Part shown: piece by piece, positions 18,445 through 52,781 of the stretch
How positions within the stretch are numbered: the first letter of the stretch is position 1
How the letters are laid out: each line of letters starts with the position of its first letter
NCBI RefSeq assembly: GCF_001660705.2
Contig: NZ_LYBV02000017.1
Span: 1 to 64,000 of the forward strand
Length of the DNA stretch: 64,000 bases
Direction of reading: 5' to 3'
Source of the DNA: Saccharicrinis aurantiacus
GTDB taxonomy: Bacteria; Bacteroidota; Bacteroidia; Bacteroidales; Marinilabiliaceae
The notes under the pieces: generated by a model
Databases searched by the model: none
What the model was told of the DNA's origin: nothing
Seen by the model: the letters and a program-made list of their open reading frames with translations, nothing else
Program-made: the position numbers and the translations under genes

Positions 18445-18540
18445 AGGGGCTTCCCCAAGGGGCGGGCTATGCGCTATATCTTTGCTTCGCCAAAATGGGC
18501 TCACAAAGGATGACGCTGCTATCCCTAAGCCAGAAACAAC
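18445..18540. repeat. GC-rich REP-like intergenic element
   Basis: About 95 bp that is much richer in GC than the surroundings, containing GGGG-CTT-CCCC-AA-GGGG alternating short stems and an AAAGGATGACGCTGCTATCC segment with a weak stem. Intergenic elements of similar wording are, from memory, widespread in Bacteroidota genomes. Only one copy is visible in this window, so repetitiveness here is inference. A 76-codon open frame across it has no protein-like features. Confidence 0.4.
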
Positions 18541-32283: not shown

Positions 32284-32630
32284 AAAATATTTAGCTAATA
32301 CTATTAGCTATAAATATACTTGATCAACAATAAATAATGATATAATAATCATTGATTTTGAGGGGGTAGACTCGTAGTGTTTGTATAATTATTTTAATTA
32401 CTATCTAATCTAGAATTATTGTTTCAAATTCAATATTCAGTTTAAAATAATGGTTATTAGTATGGTAGAATCGGTAACCAAAACAAAAACCTGTAACTGG
32501 ACCTAAGAAAAACAAAACCACGTCAAAAGCTATATTATAATTTATTGGGTATGTAACCATTTATAAAATTCGGGTGTATATCTTTATGCATTATTTAAAC
32601 AGAATAATTTAGACCTAATTGTAAGCATTT
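32284..32630. promoter_or_regulatory. Divergent intergenic region with a 19 bp palindrome
   Basis: 347 bp between the kelch/DUF1080 gene and the lytS-like gene. A perfect palindrome TAGCTAATA-C-TATTAGCTA (32292-32310) begins 9 bp upstream of the kelch start codon and is a candidate operator. The remainder is AT-rich, with no clear promoter. Confidence 0.45.
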
Positions 32631-34484
32631 ATGCAAAAAAAATATAGTGTTGCCCTATTTATTATTTTAGGCATTACTTCCCTCCTATTGGTTTTCAAAC
32701 CTGAACATAAAAACACAATTGAAACTACTAATTTTGAGAAAATAGTTTTACCTATTTATCAGCAATCTTTTACAAAAGCTGATGCTTCATTAATTAAACT
32801 AGATAGCCTATTGGCAAATCGCATAAACAATAAGGAGGAAGAAGCGCATATCTATTTTTTAAAGGGTGAAATAAATATATTAAACCGTCAGTTTGAAGAG
32901 GCCATTGCAAACAGTACAATAGCTTATAATTATTATAAAAATACTGATCATTATTATACTACTGGTTTATGCCTAATTACAATAAGTTCGGCGCATGCAC
33001 ATTTAACACAATATCAAAAGGCACAAGAAGTAGCTTTTAAAGCGCTTAAACTAGCAAAAGAACAATCGAATATACGTTTGTTAGGTAAAGTATATAATCG
33101 GCTTTTTAATATACACATTGCTCTGAATGATTATGAAACAGGATTGATGTATATACTCAAAACCGATTCCTTATTTACAATAATGAAGGACTCCTCCTCA
33201 ATGTCAGCTTGTAAAAACAATATAGGGGCCATTTATATGCGACTAAATGAATACAATAACGCAATAAGCTATTTTGAACAAGCCGTAGACTTAATGATTA
33301 ATGATACTGACGTTAGACCGCTAGTTAGTACCTATAACAACCTTGGCTTTACACACATTATGGTTGGCGATATTGACAATGCCATATTTTATCTTAAAAA
33401 ATCAATTACCATAAATAGAACTAGTAGTACTATCAATCCTGCCCCATTTAAAGGACTAGGTAAGGCATATATTATACAAAGTAAAATAGACTCATCTAAT
33501 TACTATTATCAAAAAGCTTTAAATATTTACTCATCAGAAGCCGAATATTCTGAAATGATTGAGATACTCAATCAACTTATATCCAATAACTTTATTGCTA
33601 AAAACTACGATACAGCTATTGCTTATCAAAAAGATAGAGATAGCATACAGAACCACAGTTGGGCAAAAGAAAAAGAAGAGTTGCTATCATTTGCTAATGT
33701 AAAATACGAAGTACTAAAAAAGGAACAAGAGGTAGAGCAAGAAGCGGAAAAGAACAAATCAAACCGAATAATATTTAGTATTATTGCATTAACATTAGTC
33801 TTGTTAATATTTGCGCTCATAGTAACTTTTAACAACTACCGATTACGCACAGCTAACCAAACAGCCGATTTAGAACAGAAACTTTTGCGCATCCAAATGA
33901 ATCCTCATTTTATATTCAACACATTAGCGGCAATTCAAAATATTATACTCGATGGCGACACTATAAAATCAACCAAGCTTATTGCAAAATTCTCTCGCTT
34001 AATGCGACAAATATTTGAATATGTACGTAAAGAAAATATCTCTTTAGATCAAGAGATTAATATGCTAGCTAATTACATTGGAACACAACAAGCCAGGTTT
34101 AATAATAAATTTATTTATCAGCTAGAGCTGGATGAAAAAATACACCCCGAACAAGTACAAATTCCTCCAATGCTACTACAACCTTTCATTGAAAATTCAA
34201 TTGAATATGGATTAAAGCATTTAAAAATACCTGGTGAAATAAAGGTTTCTATAAAAAAGATTAATCACCATCTTGAATTTATTATTTCAGATAATGGTAT
34301 TGGTCGTAGTCAAATGAAAAAATACAAGCATACCGAAAACGAAATACATGCTACAGATGTATTTTTATCACGATTAAAAAAACGTCATTTAGGCGAAGAG
34401 AATTCCTTTGAAGTAATTGATTTATTCGATACCGGAGGTAATGCCTCGGGAACAATTGTAAAATTTAAACTTAGGAGTAAATGA
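32631..34484 (+). CDS. TPR sensor histidine kinase of the LytS/YehU family
   Basis: 617 residues. An N-terminal membrane or signal helix is followed by about eight TPR units (residues 55-365, for example YNNAISYFEQAVDLM and DIDNAIFYLKKSITIN), a coiled segment, one transmembrane helix (IIFSIIALTLVLLIFALIV, ~385-405) and a His_kinase domain with the phospho-acceptor in MNPHFIFNTLAAIQNII and an HATPase motif ISDNGIGRS. The TPR part is probably the periplasmic sensor. The stop overlaps the response regulator gene by 4 bp (ATGA). Confidence 0.93.
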   Translation: MQKKYSVALFIILGITSLLLVFKPEHKNTIETTNFEKIVLPIYQQSFTKADASLIKLDSLLANRINNKEEEAHIYFLKGEINILNRQFEEAIANSTIAYNYYKNTDHYYTTGLCLITISSAHAHLTQYQKAQEVAFKALKLAKEQSNIRLLGKVYNRLFNIHIALNDYETGLMYILKTDSLFTIMKDSSSMSACKNNIGAIYMRLNEYNNAISYFEQAVDLMINDTDVRPLVSTYNNLGFTHIMVGDIDNAIFYLKKSITINRTSSTINPAPFKGLGKAYIIQSKIDSSNYYYQKALNIYSSEAEYSEMIEILNQLISNNFIAKNYDTAIAYQKDRDSIQNHSWAKEKEELLSFANVKYEVLKKEQEVEQEAEKNKSNRIIFSIIALTLVLLIFALIVTFNNYRLRTANQTADLEQKLLRIQMNPHFIFNTLAAIQNIILDGDTIKSTKLIAKFSRLMRQIFEYVRKENISLDQEINMLANYIGTQQARFNNKFIYQLELDEKIHPEQVQIPPMLLQPFIENSIEYGLKHLKIPGEIKVSIKKINHHLEFIISDNGIGRSQMKKYKHTENEIHATDVFLSRLKKRHLGEENSFEVIDLFDTGGNASGTIVKFKLRSK

Positions 34485-35218
34485 TAAAAACACTTATTAT
34501 AGAAGATGAGTTTAACGCATTAAACACACTAAAAAAAATGCTCTCCATACTTGCTGAAGATATTGATATCGTTGGCGATTCTGATAATGTTGAGGATGCC
34601 ATACAACTAATAAACAGCACAAAACCACAATTGGTATTACTCGATATTGAATTAATTGGAGGCAATGCTTTTCAGGTATTAGAAGCCTGCGACAAAGGAA
34701 CCTTTAATGTGATATTTACAACAGCTTATGACCAGTTTGCAATTAAAGCTTTTAAGTTTGATACTTTTGATTATCTACTAAAACCCATTGATATGGATGA
34801 GTTGGAAGACTGCCTTAATAGATTCAGGTCCTTTCTAAATAAAACCATTTCAATTAAAGAAAGTAAAAAAACAAATAATACAACCACAACTACTGAAGTA
34901 GCTGAAGAAAAGTTATTACTAAAAACTGCCGATAATCAATATATTATAAATGTAAATGATATCATAAGGTGCCAATCTGATGGTAGCTATACAACTATTT
35001 ACACTCACGAAAAACAAATACTAATATCACGTAATCTTAAATATTACGAGGGCGTTTTAAATTCGCATCTCTTCTTTAGAGTTCATCAATCACATTTGGT
35101 AAACCTAAAGCATATTAAGTCTATTAATAGCAGCAATATATTAACCCTGAAGGATAATTCGGAAGTACCTGTTTCTACACGAAAAAAAGCATTACTGCAG
35201 AAAGCATTAAAGAGCTAA
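34481..35218 (+). CDS. LytTR-family response regulator
   Basis: 245 residues. A receiver domain with the phospho-acceptor aspartate in LVLLDIELIGGNAF and the K switch in YLLKPID is joined to a LytTR DNA-binding domain (INVNDIIRCQSDGSYTTIYT, RVHQSHLVNLKHIKSI). It is the cognate partner of the overlapping LytS-type kinase. A hairpin follows it, then the six-gene unknown operon on the same strand, making that operon a plausible target. Confidence 0.94.
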   Translation: MIKTLIIEDEFNALNTLKKMLSILAEDIDIVGDSDNVEDAIQLINSTKPQLVLLDIELIGGNAFQVLEACDKGTFNVIFTTAYDQFAIKAFKFDTFDYLLKPIDMDELEDCLNRFRSFLNKTISIKESKKTNNTTTTTEVAEEKLLLKTADNQYIINVNDIIRCQSDGSYTTIYTHEKQILISRNLKYYEGVLNSHLFFRVHQSHLVNLKHIKSINSSNILTLKDNSEVPVSTRKKALLQKALKS

Positions 35219-35235
35219 AAGCAATGTAACCTTGG

Positions 35236-35263
35236 AGTAATCGAGTACCCTAACTCGATTACT
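35236..35263 (+). terminator. Hairpin after the two-component operon
   Basis: A perfect 11 bp stem (35236-35246 with 35253-35263) with a 6-base loop lies 17 bp beyond the response regulator stop. It lacks a T-run, so termination may be partial. Confidence 0.5.
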
Positions 35264-35401
35264 TATCCATTTAGCCGCTTACCTAAAACATCCTTTTCCA
35301 TCACATAAAGAACGAATATGAAATTAATTGCCACGAAAACAAAGTGTTTTTTGTAAGCAAACTACTAGCTCATACATTAGTCGAAGCAAAAACAAAATAC
35401 T

Positions 35402-36061
35402 ATGATTGCATCGGCAGAAAAATACAAAGCGTTTAATACAATTCTACTTTTAGAGAAACTTGCTCATCAAGAAATTAAACCTATTGTTAGTTTACATTTA
35501 CGCACAGGGCTATCCATTTATGGCTTCATCATTTCCTTGGATAAAACCGATTTAGAGGGTATCCATATTTGCTTTCAAACGGAGGCTACAAAATCCCTTA
35601 TATTCTTTCATGCTTCCGATATCATTGCCTTAGAAGTTCATCAGCCTGAGAAAATAGCTACACTTTTAAGCAAAGGTGAAATACCGCGTGCATTAAACAA
35701 CGATGAAAAAATTAGCCTGTTACAACTTAAACGTTGGATAAAATCGGAATGTGAGGCCTTAGCTCATAAACATCCTGAGTTTGATATTGTGTTGCCAATG
35801 CAAAACTTGAGTGCCACAGACCGCTTAAATATAAAAGATATTATTGGTATGGTGCTACAAGCCATTAATTCTGTATGCAGTGATACTATGGGAAAAGAAG
35901 CTTGGTGCATCATCGAATCAATACAAATAACATACTGTGATAAGGGTTTTTCTCTTGATAAAAAAGAAAACAAGCACATTAACTTATCCATTCAATACCA
36001 GAAAGCACTGAGCGAAACTTTTGCAACTGATATTGAAAATGCTCTACTAAACAACTTATAA
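35402..36061 (+). CDS. Uncharacterised protein, first gene of the M48/TerB operon
   Basis: 219 residues, cytosolic. The N-terminal part (about 25-85: VSLHLRTGLSIYGFIISLDK...ICFQ...IFFHASDIIALEV) looks like a small SH3/Sm-like barrel. The C-terminal 75 residues (LQAINSVCSDTMGKEAWCII then a GFSLDKKENKHINLSIQY strand pair) resemble the C-terminal half of the N-terminal domain of the next two proteins (EALKAICIDDFGKN and EAFTAICADDMGKE). The link is seen by eye and needs profile comparison. It starts the operon 183 bp after the response regulator and lies 11 bp before the next gene. Confidence 0.65.
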   Translation: MIASAEKYKAFNTILLLEKLAHQEIKPIVSLHLRTGLSIYGFIISLDKTDLEGIHICFQTEATKSLIFFHASDIIALEVHQPEKIATLLSKGEIPRALNNDEKISLLQLKRWIKSECEALAHKHPEFDIVLPMQNLSATDRLNIKDIIGMVLQAINSVCSDTMGKEAWCIIESIQITYCDKGFSLDKKENKHINLSIQYQKALSETFATDIENALLNNL

Positions 36062-36072
36062 AGTTAATAATT

Positions 36073-37230
36073 ATGGGACTTAAAGAACGACGAGCTATAA
36101 AAGCTTTTCAGGAGGAACAATACCCTGAATTAGAAGAACAAATTAAACAATTTGCAGGTTTCGATTTACCCCTAGAGATTCAATGGGAAACCATGGTAGA
36201 AGATCGTTTTGCACATTTGTATAACGAAACTTATGTGAAAATATACTTTAAACCGTTAATTGAAGCCTTAAAGGCCATTTGCATCGACGATTTCGGAAAA
36301 AATATTCTGTATGCTGGATTACAAAAAGTAATCATAAAAAACGATGGTAATATCCACAACCCTGAAACTGGGTATTCATTAGAAAACAAGGTTTTAACCA
36401 TTAACCTAGACCCTGTTATTAATGCTGATAATATGGAACCTAGGATTTCAGCGCTTACCGATTTATTGGAACGAAAATTAGAAGAAACAGGTAGTTCTGA
36501 CGAGAATGTAGACACGCAAATCCCTTCAGTAGATAACCCTAACCCCACTGCAATAACTACAGACAAAAACCAAATTAAAGTAGGTATTGATGACTTATTT
36601 AACCTGCACGCAGCAAAATCCTACGAAAAACAAAACCATTGCGCCGAAATTACTGGCGACAAAAAATGGGATTTTAATTTAATGGATGGCATACTTCGTT
36701 TTGGCGATGCGCTCGAAGTACCTATACAGATATTAGGTACCTACTCGCCAAAACAAAAAACATGGCTTTGGGGATGGGGAAATACTCAAAGTGGTATTCC
36801 TGATGCGTTATTAGCTACAGCCAAACAAATACGTGAAATAGGAATCAACAATAATATTGAAGAATTCACTGTACCTAAAATAGCATTTAAAAACGATCCG
36901 GGGCATTATTATGCTATGATTGCTTCTGGAGTGATCAATGCAAGTGCCTATTTTCCGGTTGATTTTAATGGCATCACAATTTACGTGTTAACCAACTCGG
37001 AGCTGATGACTAAAAAAGATAAAACTCCAACTCCTATCCTAATATCAACATTTACAGGATTAATAGCATCGATGAACGTGTCGCATAAAGCGTGCCTAAC
37101 AGCTTACTTAAACCAGAATGGCTTTGCGGTTGAACCAGCAGGAAACAACCTTATTGCTAAACGAAATAACGAAGAAGTATTTGCCCTTTTTAACTTAAAA
37201 GGGAATCTAATGAAAATTACTAATAACTAA
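36073..37230 (+). CDS. Two-domain protein: shared unknown domain plus DUF6882-like domain
   Basis: 385 residues. Residues 1-135 (MGLKERRAIKAFQEEQYPEL ... IKQFAGFDLPLEIQWETMVE) are a domain repeated in the next gene. After an acidic linker, residues 185-330 resemble DUF6882: RFGDALEVPIQILGTYSPKQ, WLWGWGNTQSGIPDALL, HYYAMIASGVINASAYFPV. DUF6882 proteins are uncharacterised and occur in many Gram-negatives. No signal or membrane helix. It is the second gene of the operon. Confidence 0.72.
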   Translation: MGLKERRAIKAFQEEQYPELEEQIKQFAGFDLPLEIQWETMVEDRFAHLYNETYVKIYFKPLIEALKAICIDDFGKNILYAGLQKVIIKNDGNIHNPETGYSLENKVLTINLDPVINADNMEPRISALTDLLERKLEETGSSDENVDTQIPSVDNPNPTAITTDKNQIKVGIDDLFNLHAAKSYEKQNHCAEITGDKKWDFNLMDGILRFGDALEVPIQILGTYSPKQKTWLWGWGNTQSGIPDALLATAKQIREIGINNNIEEFTVPKIAFKNDPGHYYAMIASGVINASAYFPVDFNGITIYVLTNSELMTKKDKTPTPILISTFTGLIASMNVSHKACLTAYLNQNGFAVEPAGNNLIAKRNNEEVFALFNLKGNLMKITNN

Positions 37231-37248
37231 ATTTTAAACAATCGAATC

Positions 37249-37662
37249 ATGGGACTTAAAGAAAGAAGAATCGCACAACAATTTGAGCAAGAACAACTAC
37301 CTGAGTTAACAGAACAAATTAATAAGGCTGCTGGCTTTGAAGTTGAAATGGAAATTAAATGGGAAACTCTAGTGGCAGAAGAAAGGTTTAATCACCTGCT
37401 TGCCGACTCCTACCCTAAAGTTTATTTCCAACCATTAATTGAGGCTTTTACAGCAATTTGTGCTGACGATATGGGTAAGGAAGCTTTGCAAGAATCATTA
37501 AAAAAGGTACTAATTGTAAACGAAAATAACCATCATAATCCTACACATGCATATTCTTTTTCTGATGGTATTTTAAAGGTGGATCACAGCCCTATTATGA
37601 ATGTCGATGATGTAAAAAGCAGAACCGAAAAACTAAATGAACTACTAGAGAATAGCCTTTAG
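37249..37662 (+). CDS. Stand-alone paralogue of the preceding protein's N-terminal domain
   Basis: 137 residues, beginning MGLKERRIAQQFEQEQLPEL. It aligns along its whole length with residues 1-135 of the previous gene, including the AAGFEVEMEIKWETLV and FQPLIEAFTAICADDMGKEA stretches. It is a tandem duplication in which one copy is fused to a DUF6882-like domain and the other is free. The role is unknown; such pairs often form hetero-oligomers. Confidence 0.72.
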   Translation: MGLKERRIAQQFEQEQLPELTEQINKAAGFEVEMEIKWETLVAEERFNHLLADSYPKVYFQPLIEAFTAICADDMGKEALQESLKKVLIVNENNHHNPTHAYSFSDGILKVDHSPIMNVDDVKSRTEKLNELLENSL

Positions 37663-37739
37663 TAAATACCTTTTAAATGAGGATAAATATTGAAATTATT
37701 TATCCTCAAATCAAAAAACCTTAACTAATTAGAAAAATT

Positions 37740-39005
37740 ATGAGTGTAATTGAAGCATATAAAAGTACAAGAACAGATATTGACCTAGACTTATTGGTAT
37801 ACGATGGTGACCGCGATTATGTATTAGAGTTTGATGAAGACAAAGAAATTCAGAAAACAGTAAGCGATATTAAGGATAATAATCCTGTATTTAAATCGCG
37901 TCGACACCTATTAAAATCCAGTCTTAGGTTAACAAGAGCACTTGCTCCAAATCTGCATGAAATAGCCGATCATTGTATTGATGTATTACAACTGAAATCG
38001 AGTATTGAGTTCTTCGTTTATCAAAGTGATAAGTTTAACGCTGCTTGTTATCCGCCAGAAGAAGATAAGTTATACATTATCATTTCATCGGGAATGATTG
38101 AACGCTTCACAAAAGAAGAATTACTCTTTGTAGTTGGCCACGAGATTGGTCATGTTCTATTTGAGCATTTTAAATATCCTGTAAGTCATATTTTAGAGGT
38201 TGGCTGCAATATTCTATCACCATTACATGCCATGAAATTGTATGCTTGGAACAGAAATGCCGAAATTAGCGCAGATAGAACAGGATTATTATGCTGTGGT
38301 AGTTTTGAATCAGCAGCAAAAGCTTTCTTTAAGCTATCCTCCGGTGTAACTTCCAATTCCTTGGATTTTAAGCTAAATGAATACATTAAGCAGTTTGTTG
38401 ACTTGGAGGCTGTAATGAATGACTCGGATCACGACCCATCTGATTGGTATAGCACACACCCATTTAGTCCTCTGCGCATTAAGGCTTTGGAGTTATTCAA
38501 TAAAAGCGAAACCTTTAAACAGTTTATTCCTACTGTAAATTCAGAGATTACAGAGGATCAGATGGAGGATGAAATCAAGAAAATTATGTCGCTTATGGAA
38601 CCTGAATATTTAGCTTCAGATACTGAATTTGGTGCTAAAATTCAGCAATTTATGTTCTTTGGTGGTTATATGATTTCTATTGCTGATGGTGTTGTTGAGG
38701 ATTCGGAAATACAAGCACTCCGCTCTATCGTTAATCAGGATGTTTTTACAACAAGCATGATGACAATCAATGAACATACACAAGATGAAATTATTGACGA
38801 ACTGAAACACTTATCTAAGGAACTCAATGTGTCCTTATCTGTAATGCAAAAGCTAAATATACTACGTGATCTATCAATTATTTCTTATTCAGATGGCGAA
38901 ATCGCCAAAGAAGAAGTGGTGGTGCTTCATAACCTAGCGCACCTCTTAAAAATCAATACTGAATTTATTGATAGAACACTTAATGATGCACAAGGCATCG
39001 AGTAA
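37740..39005 (+). CDS. M48-family metalloprotease with C-terminal TerB-like region
   Basis: 421 residues with no signal or membrane segment, so a cytosolic zinc protease. The zinc-binding motif is in LLFVVGHEIGHVLFEHF (HExxH near residue 134), and the third ligand is the glutamate in NRNAEISADRTGLL. Residues 290-421 (KIQQFMFFGGYMISIADGVV, EDSEIQALRSI, LSIISYSDGEIAKEEVV) resemble TerB, a helical domain of tellurite-resistance and phage-stress systems. An M48 peptidase fused to TerB is known in predicted conflict and stress contexts, but its function is untested. It is the fourth operon gene. Confidence 0.83.
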   Translation: MSVIEAYKSTRTDIDLDLLVYDGDRDYVLEFDEDKEIQKTVSDIKDNNPVFKSRRHLLKSSLRLTRALAPNLHEIADHCIDVLQLKSSIEFFVYQSDKFNAACYPPEEDKLYIIISSGMIERFTKEELLFVVGHEIGHVLFEHFKYPVSHILEVGCNILSPLHAMKLYAWNRNAEISADRTGLLCCGSFESAAKAFFKLSSGVTSNSLDFKLNEYIKQFVDLEAVMNDSDHDPSDWYSTHPFSPLRIKALELFNKSETFKQFIPTVNSEITEDQMEDEIKKIMSLMEPEYLASDTEFGAKIQQFMFFGGYMISIADGVVEDSEIQALRSIVNQDVFTTSMMTINEHTQDEIIDELKHLSKELNVSLSVMQKLNILRDLSIISYSDGEIAKEEVVVLHNLAHLLKINTEFIDRTLNDAQGIE

Positions 39006-39080
39006 TAAATATTAAAAACTCCGCAAGCTTTATTAAAAAAGATAAGGTTATAGGGAGCTTTAAAACAAGACAAATAGAAT

Positions 39081-39683
39081 ATGCAAGAACCTATCGAAAA
39101 CTTAAAATGTAATAATTATACTTACAAAGAAATTGCTGATGGCATTGCTATCCTAAATTACATAGGCAAGGCAACTAATATTTCAATCCCCAATTATATC
39201 AACAACAAGCCCGTAACGCAAATATGGAAAGAAGCCTTTGATAACAAGGGTTTAGAAACGGCTGAATTACCTGAACATCTTGAATATATTGGCGAAGATG
39301 CTTTTTATAAGAATAAACTTACAGAAATTACTATTCCGCAAAATGTTAAGCAAATTGGTGGCGGTGCATTTGGAAGAAATCAGTTAGAAAAACTTACCAT
39401 CAAGGCAGACCTTAAAACCATACCAATGTTTTGTTTTGTAGGCAATGCATTATCTAAACTCGATTTACCCGAATCTGTAAACACCTTATATAACAATTGC
39501 TTTGCCGAGAATAATTTTACCGAGCTTACAATCCCTAACCATATAGAAACATTAAGCTCTGCGGCTTTCGCTAGTTCTAAAAACCTTAAAAAGGTATCCT
39601 TACCAGAAAAATTTATGAGCGATAGGGAAAGCATATTTACCGGATCAGATTTTAATAGCATCACTTTTAAAACATCTAATTAA
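39081..39683 (+). CDS. BspA-type leucine-rich-repeat protein
   Basis: 200 residues made of LRR_5 (BspA/Treponema) repeats: LEYIGEDAFYKNKLTEITIP, KQIGGGAFGRNQLEKLTI, LYNNCFAENNFTELTIP. No signal peptide or surface anchor, unlike most BspA proteins, so it probably acts in the cytosol as an interaction module for the operon. It is followed by the last operon gene after 8 bp. Confidence 0.82.
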   Translation: MQEPIENLKCNNYTYKEIADGIAILNYIGKATNISIPNYINNKPVTQIWKEAFDNKGLETAELPEHLEYIGEDAFYKNKLTEITIPQNVKQIGGGAFGRNQLEKLTIKADLKTIPMFCFVGNALSKLDLPESVNTLYNNCFAENNFTELTIPNHIETLSSAAFASSKNLKKVSLPEKFMSDRESIFTGSDFNSITFKTSN

Positions 39684-39691
39684 TACATATT

Positions 39692-40207
39692 ATGAGTTAC
39701 GGCATTACACCCATACAAACTAATATTAAGCTGATAGAGCAGCAAATATTAAACCTAAACGAGACACAAAAAAAGGAGTATATAAAAGCATTAAGGCCGC
39801 ATTTAAAAGAACTACAAGCTTCTTTTGGCGAACCCGTTTTACAGATATTAAAAGACATGTTAAACGGTAAAGGTTTCGAGGCTGAATATGACTATTTGTA
39901 TTGGTACATATTCGAGAAAATATTTTTGCTGCATGGTAGTTCCCTCAATAACAGTGAGTGGTATCCTACTGATCTTTCAGAACTAGGAAAATTAAAAGCG
40001 CTAAAGATTTTTGACCTTCAACTAGAAAACATTCCTTACCCTGATGATTTTCCATTGGTATATTCTTGTAGAAGCGAAGATATAGAAACCCTTCGAATAG
40101 AGGTAAGTGAAATAATAAGCGATAGCGCGCAAAGAGACCAATTTCTATCATGGATAGATGCCTGTAATTCTGGAGACAATAATGATTTAGTGTTATATTA
40201 CTATTAG
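39692..40207 (+). CDS. Uncharacterised protein ending the M48/TerB operon
   Basis: 171 residues, cytosolic, starting MSYGITPIQTNIKLIEQ, with aromatic-rich segments (FEAEYDYLYWYIFEKIFLL) and an acidic C-terminus (CNSGDNNDLVLYYY). The opening and the YW-rich middle resemble a family of uncharacterised bacterial proteins (DUF7691-like), a weak assignment. It is tightly spaced to the LRR gene, and a convergent terminator hairpin follows. Confidence 0.65.
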   Translation: MSYGITPIQTNIKLIEQQILNLNETQKKEYIKALRPHLKELQASFGEPVLQILKDMLNGKGFEAEYDYLYWYIFEKIFLLHGSSLNNSEWYPTDLSELGKLKALKIFDLQLENIPYPDDFPLVYSCRSEDIETLRIEVSEIISDSAQRDQFLSWIDACNSGDNNDLVLYYY

Positions 40208-40298
40208 TTTTATAGCATTATTGAATCATTACATAGCAAGTCGTTGGCTAAAAACCAAACAACAAAGACTCTGTTTCCTATATTGATTAAACAAACAA

Positions 40299-51915: not shown

Positions 51916-51989
51916 GGTCTGGTAGTTCAGCTGGTTAGAATGCCGGCCTGTCACGCCGGAGGTCGCGGGTTCGAGTCCCGTCCAGACCG
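51916..51989 (+). tRNA. tRNA-Asp (GUC), copy 1
   Basis: 74 nt; acceptor stem GGTCTGG/CCAGACC, anticodon loop CTGTCAC giving GTC, T loop TTCGAGT, discriminator G, CCA not encoded. It is identical to the six copies that follow. Confidence 0.97.
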
Positions 51990-52062
51990 CTAGTAAAACG
52001 GAGCTTATTAAACGTAATAATCTCTTTAAAGCATAAAAATATTTGAAGATTTCTTCTAAACT

Positions 52063-52136
52063 GGTCTGGTAGTTCAGCTGGTTAGAATGCCGGCCTGTCA
52101 CGCCGGAGGTCGCGGGTTCGAGTCCCGTCCAGACCG
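52063..52136 (+). tRNA. tRNA-Asp (GUC), copy 2
   Basis: Identical 74-nt gene. It is flanked by perfectly complementary 11 bp arms (52047-52057 and 52160-52170). Confidence 0.97.
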
Positions 52137-52205
52137 CCAGTTAATCTCCTTGGAGATAAAGAAGAAATCTAAAATGTAAACGTATTTGAAGATTTTTTCT
52201 AAACT

Positions 52206-52279
52206 GGTCTGGTAGTTCAGCTGGTTAGAATGCCGGCCTGTCACGCCGGAGGTCGCGGGTTCGAGTCCCGTCCAGACCG
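52206..52279 (+). tRNA. tRNA-Asp (GUC), copy 3
   Basis: Identical 74-nt gene, flanked by complementary 11 bp arms (52190-52200 and 52303-52313) that differ in sequence from those of copy 2 on both sides in a compensating way. Confidence 0.97.
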
Positions 52280-52334
52280 CTAGTTAATCTCTTTGGAGAT
52301 AAAGAAAAAATCTAAAGTACATTTCCTTATAACT

Positions 52335-52408
52335 GGTCTGGTAGTTCAGCTGGTTAGAATGCCGGCCTGTCACGCCGGAGGTCGCGGGTTCGAGTCCCGT
52401 CCAGACCG
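52335..52408 (+). tRNA. tRNA-Asp (GUC), copy 4
   Basis: Identical 74-nt gene, flanked by complementary 10 bp arms (52321-52330 and 52432-52441). Confidence 0.97.
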
Positions 52409-52463
52409 CTAGTTAATCTCTTTAGAGATAAATAAGGAAATACAAAACATTTTTCACATAACT

Positions 52464-52537
52464 GGTCTGGTAGTTCAGCTGGTTAGAATGCCGGCCTGTC
52501 ACGCCGGAGGTCGCGGGTTCGAGTCCCGTCCAGACCG
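52464..52537 (+). tRNA. tRNA-Asp (GUC), copy 5
   Basis: Identical 74-nt gene, flanked by complementary 10 bp arms (52449-52458 and 52569-52578). Confidence 0.97.
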
Positions 52538-52607
52538 CTAGTTAAAAGTTACTTGAACAATAACTTGTTGTGAAAAATAAAACTTGAAATACTGTTTTTT
52601 ATATACT

Positions 52608-52681
52608 GGTCTGGTAGTTCAGCTGGTTAGAATGCCGGCCTGTCACGCCGGAGGTCGCGGGTTCGAGTCCCGTCCAGACCG
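52608..52681 (+). tRNA. tRNA-Asp (GUC), copy 6
   Basis: Identical 74-nt gene, flanked by complementary 12 bp arms (52594-52605 and 52685-52696). Confidence 0.97.
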
Positions 52682-52706
52682 CATTATATAAAAAACAAAA
52701 AGACCG

Positions 52707-52780
52707 GGTCTGGTAGTTCAGCTGGTTAGAATGCCGGCCTGTCACGCCGGAGGTCGCGGGTTCGAGTCCCGTCCAGACCG
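52707..52780 (+). tRNA. tRNA-Asp (GUC), copy 7
   Basis: Identical 74-nt gene and the last of the cluster. It has no private pair of arms; the cluster terminator begins 2 bp after it. Confidence 0.97.
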
Positions 52781-52781
52781 C

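Follow-up and report, generated by a model that had tools for sequence, protein, structure and literature searches.

Genes of the locus

The window, by which we mean the whole 64,000 nt stretch of Saccharicrinis aurantiacus DNA analysed here (contig NZ_LYBV02000017.1, positions 1 to 64,000), carries on its plus strand a conserved unit of eight genes, in which genes for a LytS-type histidine kinase and a LytTR response regulator precede six tightly spaced genes that we number 1 to 6 (Table 1). The domain common to genes 2 and 3 is referred to as A and the gene 1 family as B; L and G numbers denote individual loci and genomes. The original prediction, made from the sequence alone, described an operon of six plus-strand genes downstream of the two-component pair, and all six open reading frames (ORFs) are indeed present, with gaps of 11, 18, 77, 75 and 8 bp from gene 1 through gene 6 and 183 bp ahead of gene 1. 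The extent of the operon nevertheless needs revision to eight genes, as the block of DNA homology with Flammeovirga pacifica indicates that the kinase and regulator belong to it as well.

The two-component pair comprises a protein with a His_kinase domain and an adjacent receiver-LytTR regulator; the hydropathy profile of the kinase places two hydrophobic segments, at the N-terminus and at about residues 380-400, on either side of the TPR region, with the His_kinase/HATPase core following. Pfam matches bear out the fusion of gene 2 to a DUF6882 domain (103.7 bits, above cut-off) and the description of gene 5 as a BspA-type leucine-rich repeat (LRR) protein (LRR_5, 140.8 bits, above cut-off), which lacks a signal peptide by hydropathy. 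Gene 6, formerly listed only as unknown, can now be placed in a named family, DUF7691 (74.3 bits), although the function of that family is itself unknown; our literature search found no paper mentioning DUF6882 or DUF7691. Genes 1 and 3 have no Pfam match at E values up to 1, none of the six genes has an NCBIfam match above cut-off, and genes 1-3 match nothing in PHROGs below E 0.06. A crude hydropathy scan of the products of genes 1-6 gave no signal peptide or membrane helix, which fits the cytosolic location claimed for them. The roles ascribed to the kinase, the regulator and the gene 4 protease are predictions that rest on membership of well-known families.

Table 1. Features of the eight-gene unit and its control region (coordinates are those of the window)
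Feature	Position	Strand	Basis
Whole conserved eight-gene unit (marine bacterium)	32558..40209	+	Span of DNA homology to F. pacifica L037
LytS-type histidine kinase	32631..34484	+	Pfam His_kinase/HATPase core, TPR region
Response regulator, receiver plus LytTR DNA-binding domain, overlapping the kinase gene by 4 bp	34481..35218	+	Pfam
Candidate operator or hairpin in the interval from regulator to gene 1, a perfect 11-bp palindrome (6-bp loop)	35236..35263	.	
Candidate promoter-like site of Bacteroidota type ahead of gene 1, TTG-N19-TACATTAG	35351..35380	+	
Gene 1, B family, 219 aa, predicted N-terminal Sm/Hfq-like barrel and C-terminal A-like domain	35402..36061	+	
Predicted Sm-like barrel of gene 1 (residues 8-90)	35423..35671	+	AlphaFold, VIA
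A-like domain of gene 1 (residues 108-219), not confidently modelled	35723..36058	+	Two-way profile matches
Gene 2, 385 aa, A domain plus DUF6882	36073..37230	+	
A domain of gene 2 (residues 1-136)	36073..36480	+	
DUF6882 domain of gene 2	36589..36993	+	PF21813
Gene 3, 137 aa, stand-alone A domain	37249..37662	+	
Gene 4, 421 aa, predicted soluble M48 metallopeptidase with C-terminal TerB	37740..39005	+	
HEIGH zinc-binding motif of gene 4 (residues 134-138)	38139..38153	+	
TerB domain of gene 4 (residues 312-408), two acidic DG motifs	38673..38963	+	PF05099
Gene 5, 200 aa, accessory LRR protein of BspA type, no signal peptide by hydropathy	39081..39683	+	PF13306
Gene 6, 171 aa, DUF7691 protein, accessory	39692..40207	+	PF24740

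Conservation of the unit

The same eight genes are found in the same order in F. pacifica (L037), with products 71-93% identical to those of the window (kinase 83%, regulator 88%, gene 2 83%, genes 3 and 4 93% each). Homology between the two DNAs runs from position 32558 to 40209, that is from 73 bp before the kinase gene to 2 bp after gene 6, and no other protein encoded in the 4.3 and 6.2 kb that flank the unit in L037 matches the window. The ratio of non-synonymous to synonymous substitution (dN/dS) against F. pacifica lies between 0.04 and 0.18 over all eight genes and is lowest, at 0.04, in genes 3 and 4. Synonymous divergence is about 0.5 in genes 1 and 2 (35402-37230) and 0.74-1.07 in the other six genes, a difference that may reflect recombination in that stretch.

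A third genome, from the same class but another family (G639, L100), has a LytS kinase, a regulator, A, B, A-DUF6882 and M48-TerB genes in a single run of 6.6 kb on one strand, with a largest gap of 107 bp when ORFs are taken from their first start, and the run is followed by what appears by eye to be a hairpin and a T run. Identities to the window proteins are 44% for the kinase, 55% for the regulator, 64% for A, 31% for B, 42% for A-DUF6882 and 67% for M48-TerB, with A and B in another order than in the window. The M48 ORF of L100 is 496 aa from its first start, and since gene 4 aligns only from residue 79 of that ORF, translation may in fact begin further downstream. Neither gene 5 nor gene 6 was found within the 16.5 kb at L100; we therefore regard six genes as the core and genes 5 and 6 as accessory, and these two look like additions of the Flammeovirga form rather than the constituent parts they had been taken for. 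Conserved co-occurrence, by which a true system was to be recognized, is thus seen both in F. pacifica, with all eight genes, and in L100, with the six-gene core, and the view that the eight genes form one unit is well supported.

Gene 2 is present in none of the eight other genomes of the genus, and gene 4 has a single marginal match among them (G050, E 4e-4); this and similarly weak gene 4 matches in G469, G464 and G032 (E 2e-4 to 6e-4 over the four) were left out of all counts. A neighbouring fucosidase gene has relatives in G047 and G049, and as these flanks share only the fucosidase with the window (nothing else in 20 and 19 kb matches), no empty site can be read that would point to a recent insertion. 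A foreign base composition of the unit was considered and rejected, its GC content being 0.333, as in the rest of the window.

Two candidate control elements lie ahead of gene 1. The palindrome occurs only once in the window when up to three mismatches are allowed, and its arms, but not its loop, are kept in F. pacifica. The promoter-like site follows what we take to be the Bacteroidota consensus, and its TACATTAG element and spacing are likewise kept there. By eye, an inverted repeat (TGAGGATAAATA...TATTTATCCTCA, 37678-37708) can also be made out between genes 3 and 4; it is not kept in F. pacifica, in which the gap measures 234 bp.

Domain A and its diverged copy in gene 1

As originally proposed, genes 2 and 3 share a domain of about 135 residues, with 50% identity across 137 residues (E 2e-47). 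The further claim that the C-terminus of gene 1 carries the same domain holds as to relationship but not as to length, the region comprising some 110 residues rather than 75. A single BLAST pair of gene 1 with A gives only E 2e-4, and the relationship is carried by profiles in both directions. A hidden Markov model (HMM) built from A proteins alone matches gene 1 at E 1e-4 and scores 18 of 19 B proteins at the C-terminus (17 of 18 if the duplicate L020/L047 is taken once; L019 is missed), with E values from 4e-8 to 4e-4 at Z set to 1000, these proteins having in part been chosen earlier by an iterated A profile. It also matches the C-terminus of six of the eight B proteins found later by the B profile, missing those of L105 and L098, the latter cut off. 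In the reverse direction, a B-only profile run over 395 genomes of the class and 395 of the phylum (overlapping samples) returned four B and three A genes and then 11 B and seven A genes, all of its matches at E 0.001 being of these two kinds. On this profile evidence, the last ~110 residues of gene 1 are a diverged copy of A, and the unit contains three A copies.

Domain A has no recognizable family of its own. Pfam gave one marginal match (E 0.006) among 24 A members and one (E 0.007) among 17 B members, and only D73 and G76 (gene 3 numbering) are invariant across the 24 A sequences. In the gene 2 model the A domain (residues 1-130) has pLDDT values of 83-96, with DUF6882 under 50 over most of its length (in alignments, MAFFT put partial DUF6882 rows in the wrong place). 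Foldseek returned nothing significant for the A model (best E 0.24), and sequence searches of solved structures gave nothing significant for either A (best E 0.09) or B (best E 0.22). VIA produced weak zincin-like rows, headed by 4l7a (Z 7.8, rmsd 6.3 over 144); several other zincins and HECT C-lobes rank lower, and Z under 8 may reflect merely a common arrangement. Any resemblance of domain A to the zincin metallopeptidases would be a weak structural one. A has no HExxH, which is absent from gene 3 and from the N-terminus of gene 2, and a zincin fold for A is unproven.

The predicted barrel of gene 1

The N-terminus of gene 1 is predicted to form an Sm/Hfq-like barrel. The AlphaFold model has pLDDT values of 85-89 at residues 31-80, a poor C-terminus and a pTM of 0.39; VIA aligns its barrel with Bacillus subtilis Hfq at Z 9.4 (rmsd 2.3 over 67), and Hfq accounts for 47 of the best 50 entries, the remainder being YaeO, a designed barrel and PafBC, whose WYL region scores Z 8.3. 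Foldseek also places Hfq on top, at E 3.7e-3 with nothing under 1e-3, and its best fifty rows include Gemin6/7, type II DHFR, an Sm-like Xanthomonas protein and BrxR. An Sm1-like motif stands in register with that of Escherichia coli Hfq. By sequence gene 1 is not Hfq, since it scores only 0.6 bits against the E. coli protein and none of 17 B members has a Pfam match to Hfq, LSm or WYL at E 0.01; it differs from Hfq and LSm proteins further in being fused to an A-like domain. WYL domains are described as having an Sm fold close to Hfq and as possible ligand sensors (PMC6789036, in part). Gene 1 would be like the WYL proteins PafBC and BrxR in its fold, and perhaps in nucleic-acid or ligand sensing, while lacking the WYL match. 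Pfam finds no helix-turn-helix in gene 1, and its one weak NCBIfam match to the Tfx DNA-binding family, at E 0.0027, reaches 17.6 bits where the cut-off is 60.

The predicted gene 4 protease

The original assignment of gene 4 as an HExxH M48 protease with a TerB-like tail stands: Pfam gives 70 bits for Peptidase_M48 (cut-off 20.3) and 35.2 bits for TerB (PF05099; cut-off 24.4). The HEIGH motif and AEISAD at residue 174, which we take to be the ExxxD part of the M48 zinc site, are kept in all three orthologues (window, F. pacifica and L100), as are the two acidic DG motifs of TerB. Gene 4 is an M48 metallopeptidase by domain match, its motifs are intact, and it is predicted to be soluble. A sequence search of solved structures with gene 4 gave nothing significant (best E 0.11), and there was no relevant M48-TerB paper among the matches listed in our literature search.

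Two-component control of an M48 protease is familiar from CpxAR and HtpX, the latter a membrane protein. The unit described here is similar in that a two-component pair stands beside or above a zinc protease of the M48 family, which points to proteolysis under stress control, while gene 4 differs from HtpX in lacking a membrane helix by hydropathy, in its TerB tail and in its A-domain companions, and it scores only 29.4 bits against the best NCBIfam HtpX model (cut-off 422). The unit also resembles the Ter systems and Shango (TerB with a helicase and an ATPase) in having TerB as the presumed regulatory or ligand-binding part. Pfam finds no TerC, TerD, TelA or Ter/Shango helicase or ATPase in ten proteins, these being the eight of the unit and one neighbour on each side.

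Distribution of A and B

With gene 3 as query, A was found in the source genome and six others of 395 genomes of the class, one of them doubtful (G242, E 5e-4 with four internal stops, removed before counting), at 17 loci in a collection of species genomes, including two Bdellovibrionia metagenome-assembled genomes, and in nine of 72,556 plasmid records. These last are from Natrinema, the haloarchaeon TuA4 (H2), Haloferax, Shinella (two), Roseomonas, Methylobacterium (two) and Aureibacter; TuA4 and the second Shinella record (H5) are counted as matches only, their loci not being among those read. A thus occurs in Bacteroidota, Bdellovibrionia, alphaproteobacteria and haloarchaea. B was not found in the plasmids. 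A phage or viral origin was rejected, as there are no A homologues in phage records or viral contigs and no gene 4 relatives in viral contigs, and the best hit of the gene 2 model in a viral fold search was at E 0.18.

A and B are frequent neighbours. A adjoins B in 10 of the 12 genomes identified by the B profile, a profile built from loci first found via A and to which four of the 12 contributed; when these four are excluded the figure is six of eight. B lacks an adjacent A in G730 and G787, both of one genus, the G787 contig stopping 2.5 kb past B. A partial match to gene 1 in G092 (E 7e-4) was removed and is not in the B-profile result. In all, 24 loci have both genes (window, L019-L021, L037, L039, L041-L046, L048-L053, L098-L102 and L105), where L020 and L047 are the same genome, counted once, and the flanks of L042, which starts 306 bp before B, and of L098, which ends within B, are short.

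Several neighbourhoods deserve mention in their own right. A TssD/Hcp-like gene adjoins B at five loci (L049-L053; Mesonia, Leeuwenhoekiella and Zunongwangia); a type VI secretion component or immunity locus was considered and rejected, the L051 copy matching TssD at E 9e-5 but under cut-off and no such gene being present in the window unit. An RHS-type context was considered for L021, one neighbour there having weak RHS repeats. A link to MoxR/vWA conflict systems was considered for Leeuwenhoekiella L050, in which LRR and DUF5724-DUF4132-DUF7737 genes lie downstream of B; we found no paper joining two or more of DUF5724, DUF4132 and MoxR, and the terms M48, HEXXH, tellurite and LytTR do not occur in those portions of PMC7159879 (eLife 2020) covered by a term search. 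Elsewhere in the window are seven tandem tRNA-Asp(GTC) genes (51916-52781, plus strand) and a Flavo-1 small RNA match barely above its gathering score (18456-18535, minus strand; 43.6 against 42 bits).

Two-component genes near A and B

A kinase gene lies within 3 kb at 11 of the 24 A-B loci (window, L019, L037, L043-L045, L049-L051, L099 and L100). For 14 loci outside Flammeovirga in genomes with known HisKA_3 counts (2-12 per genome), and considering HisKA_3 kinases only, seven have a kinase at this distance where 0.124 would be expected, a figure that is somewhat low because it counts a 3 kb margin on each side and ignores gene lengths; L041, L042, L098-L102 and L105, for which there are no kinase counts, are omitted. 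Grouped into six lineages (our own grouping), four have a kinase against 0.05 expected, and four lineage events set against the full 0.124 give P 9e-6. The kinases are of LytS type in Flammeovirga and L100 and of HisKA_3 type elsewhere; the regulator is of LytTR type in the window and LuxR type in L019. A, B, kinase and regulator are collinear in L043 and convergent in L044, and in L019 the kinase precedes and the regulator follows A-B on the opposite strand. Such differing arrangements point to function rather than to one inherited neighbourhood.

Interpretation and alternatives

The explanation that we favour, and to which we give about an even chance, is that the unit encodes a two-component-controlled cytosolic module in which A-domain adaptors recruit a TerB-regulated M48 protease. 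It builds on the domain content of the unit, its three A copies, the intact protease motifs, the conservation of unit and core, and the recurrence of two-component neighbours. A membrane kinase, sensing through its extracytoplasmic TPR region, would phosphorylate the LytTR regulator, which would then turn on genes 1-6, and the soluble products would assemble through their common A domain. Gene 3 would serve as a bare adaptor, with gene 2 (through DUF6882) and gene 1 (through its Sm-like barrel) supplying recognition modules; the assembly would recruit or gate the zinc protease, of which the TerB tail would be the regulatory part, and the LRR and DUF7691 proteins would be optional partners. The output would be regulated proteolysis of a cytosolic substrate. 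The control of the operon by the regulator, the A-A assembly and adaptor role, the gating and the proteolysis are all steps that we infer. The original interpretation, a sensing and proteolysis complex governed by the adjacent pair, is supported in part, the Sm-like barrel of gene 1 being an element that it had missed.

A number of observations weigh against this scheme. LytTR regulators typically bind direct repeats, which the palindrome is not, and 183 bp separate the regulator from gene 1. There is no kinase within 3 kb at 13 of the 24 A-B loci, so that the link between A-B and a kinase is not obligatory, and the expected number of kinases used above is somewhat low. M48-TerB stands beside A-B in three genomes only, two M48 relatives (L024 and L025) have no A or B nearby, and A is found without a recognized B at 12 loci (L018, L022, L030-L036, L038, L040 and L106). 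Four alphaproteobacterial A proteins (L032, L033, L035 and L036) begin, by eye, with a signal peptide, and thus A also acts outside the cytosol and is not always a cytosolic adaptor.

The main rival, which we consider unlikely, is a conflict or anti-phage module in which the A, B and DUF6882 proteins detect a cytosolic cue derived from an invader and set the M48-TerB protease on invader or host targets, expression being tuned by the two-component pair. The accessory nature of gene 2, absent from all eight congeners, and the wide and patchy spread of A, including haloarchaeal and alphaproteobacterial plasmids, would suit such a role, as would the haloarchaeal plasmid loci L030 and L031, where A lies near a protein of about 1,400 aa that has weak AAA/nSTAND matches and is 66% identical from one locus to the other. 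At L025 (G481, L025:3975-11939) an M48 relative with a sub-threshold TerB lies among further unassigned genes between DEAD-HNH and Z1 proteins; these two match defence models and the M48 relative matches none, and the interval has the look of a defence cluster not yet charted. In G065 a DUF1016 gene lies near another M48 relative, and two weak actinobacterial M48 relatives on plasmids have no annotated partner of interest. TerB is described as belonging to Shango, an anti-phage system that has been tested (PMC10250203, in part), and the role of a signal sensor has been suggested for it in Ter conflict systems (PMC7824862, in part), both of which count in favour of this rival. Set against it are the PADLOC results, in which genes 1-3, 5 and 6 have no match even at E 1 and gene 4 has weak ones (capP, E 0.0044; PDC-S48, E 0.013), the low dN/dS values, which give no sign of an arms race, and the lack of A homologues in phages or viral contigs. 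Two-component control is also, to our knowledge, unusual for defence.

A post-transcriptional unit, in which gene 1 replaces Hfq and binds RNA through its barrel while the A proteins and protease control its level, seems to us improbable. The predicted Sm fold, the predominance of Hfq among the VIA entries and the register of the Sm1-like motif are what such a stand-in would show, and no Hfq match was found in 61 relatives, the source genome included, by a search that did detect it in five of 14 controls, including the E. coli and B. subtilis genomes. The proposal has to contend with the lack of any relation at the sequence level, with the fact that small barrels also bind ligands and proteins (PafBC WYL, Gemin6/7, type II DHFR and BrxR), and with an accessory distribution unlike that of a global RNA chaperone. 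That there is no system at all, only unrelated accessory genes that are co-directional by chance, is very improbable and already largely refuted: the restriction of the M48-TerB association to three genomes, the lack of genes 5 and 6 at L100 and the 77 and 75 bp gaps, which could house separate promoters, are outweighed by the sharp end of F. pacifica homology at the unit borders, the core genes kept together at 31-67% identity in another family, and the adjacency of B to A in 10 of 12 genomes.

Returning to the adaptor-protease module, a more far-reaching form of it, which we regard as improbable, is that A represents a new adaptor family of bacteria and archaea. Here, in bacteria without Hfq, it would bring together an Sm-fold subunit, DUF6882 as a sensor and a zinc protease gated by TerB, giving a proteolytic complex that nucleic acid or a ligand triggers and that a sensor in the envelope arms; if true, this would be a hitherto undescribed kind of stress or immune device. 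The analysis gives a domain family without a name a concrete genetic context, links the poorly understood TerB domain with a motif-intact protease beside a two-component pair, and points to a family of predicted Sm-like proteins in bacteria where no Hfq was found, while the six-gene core of L100 is compact enough for transfer to a laboratory host.

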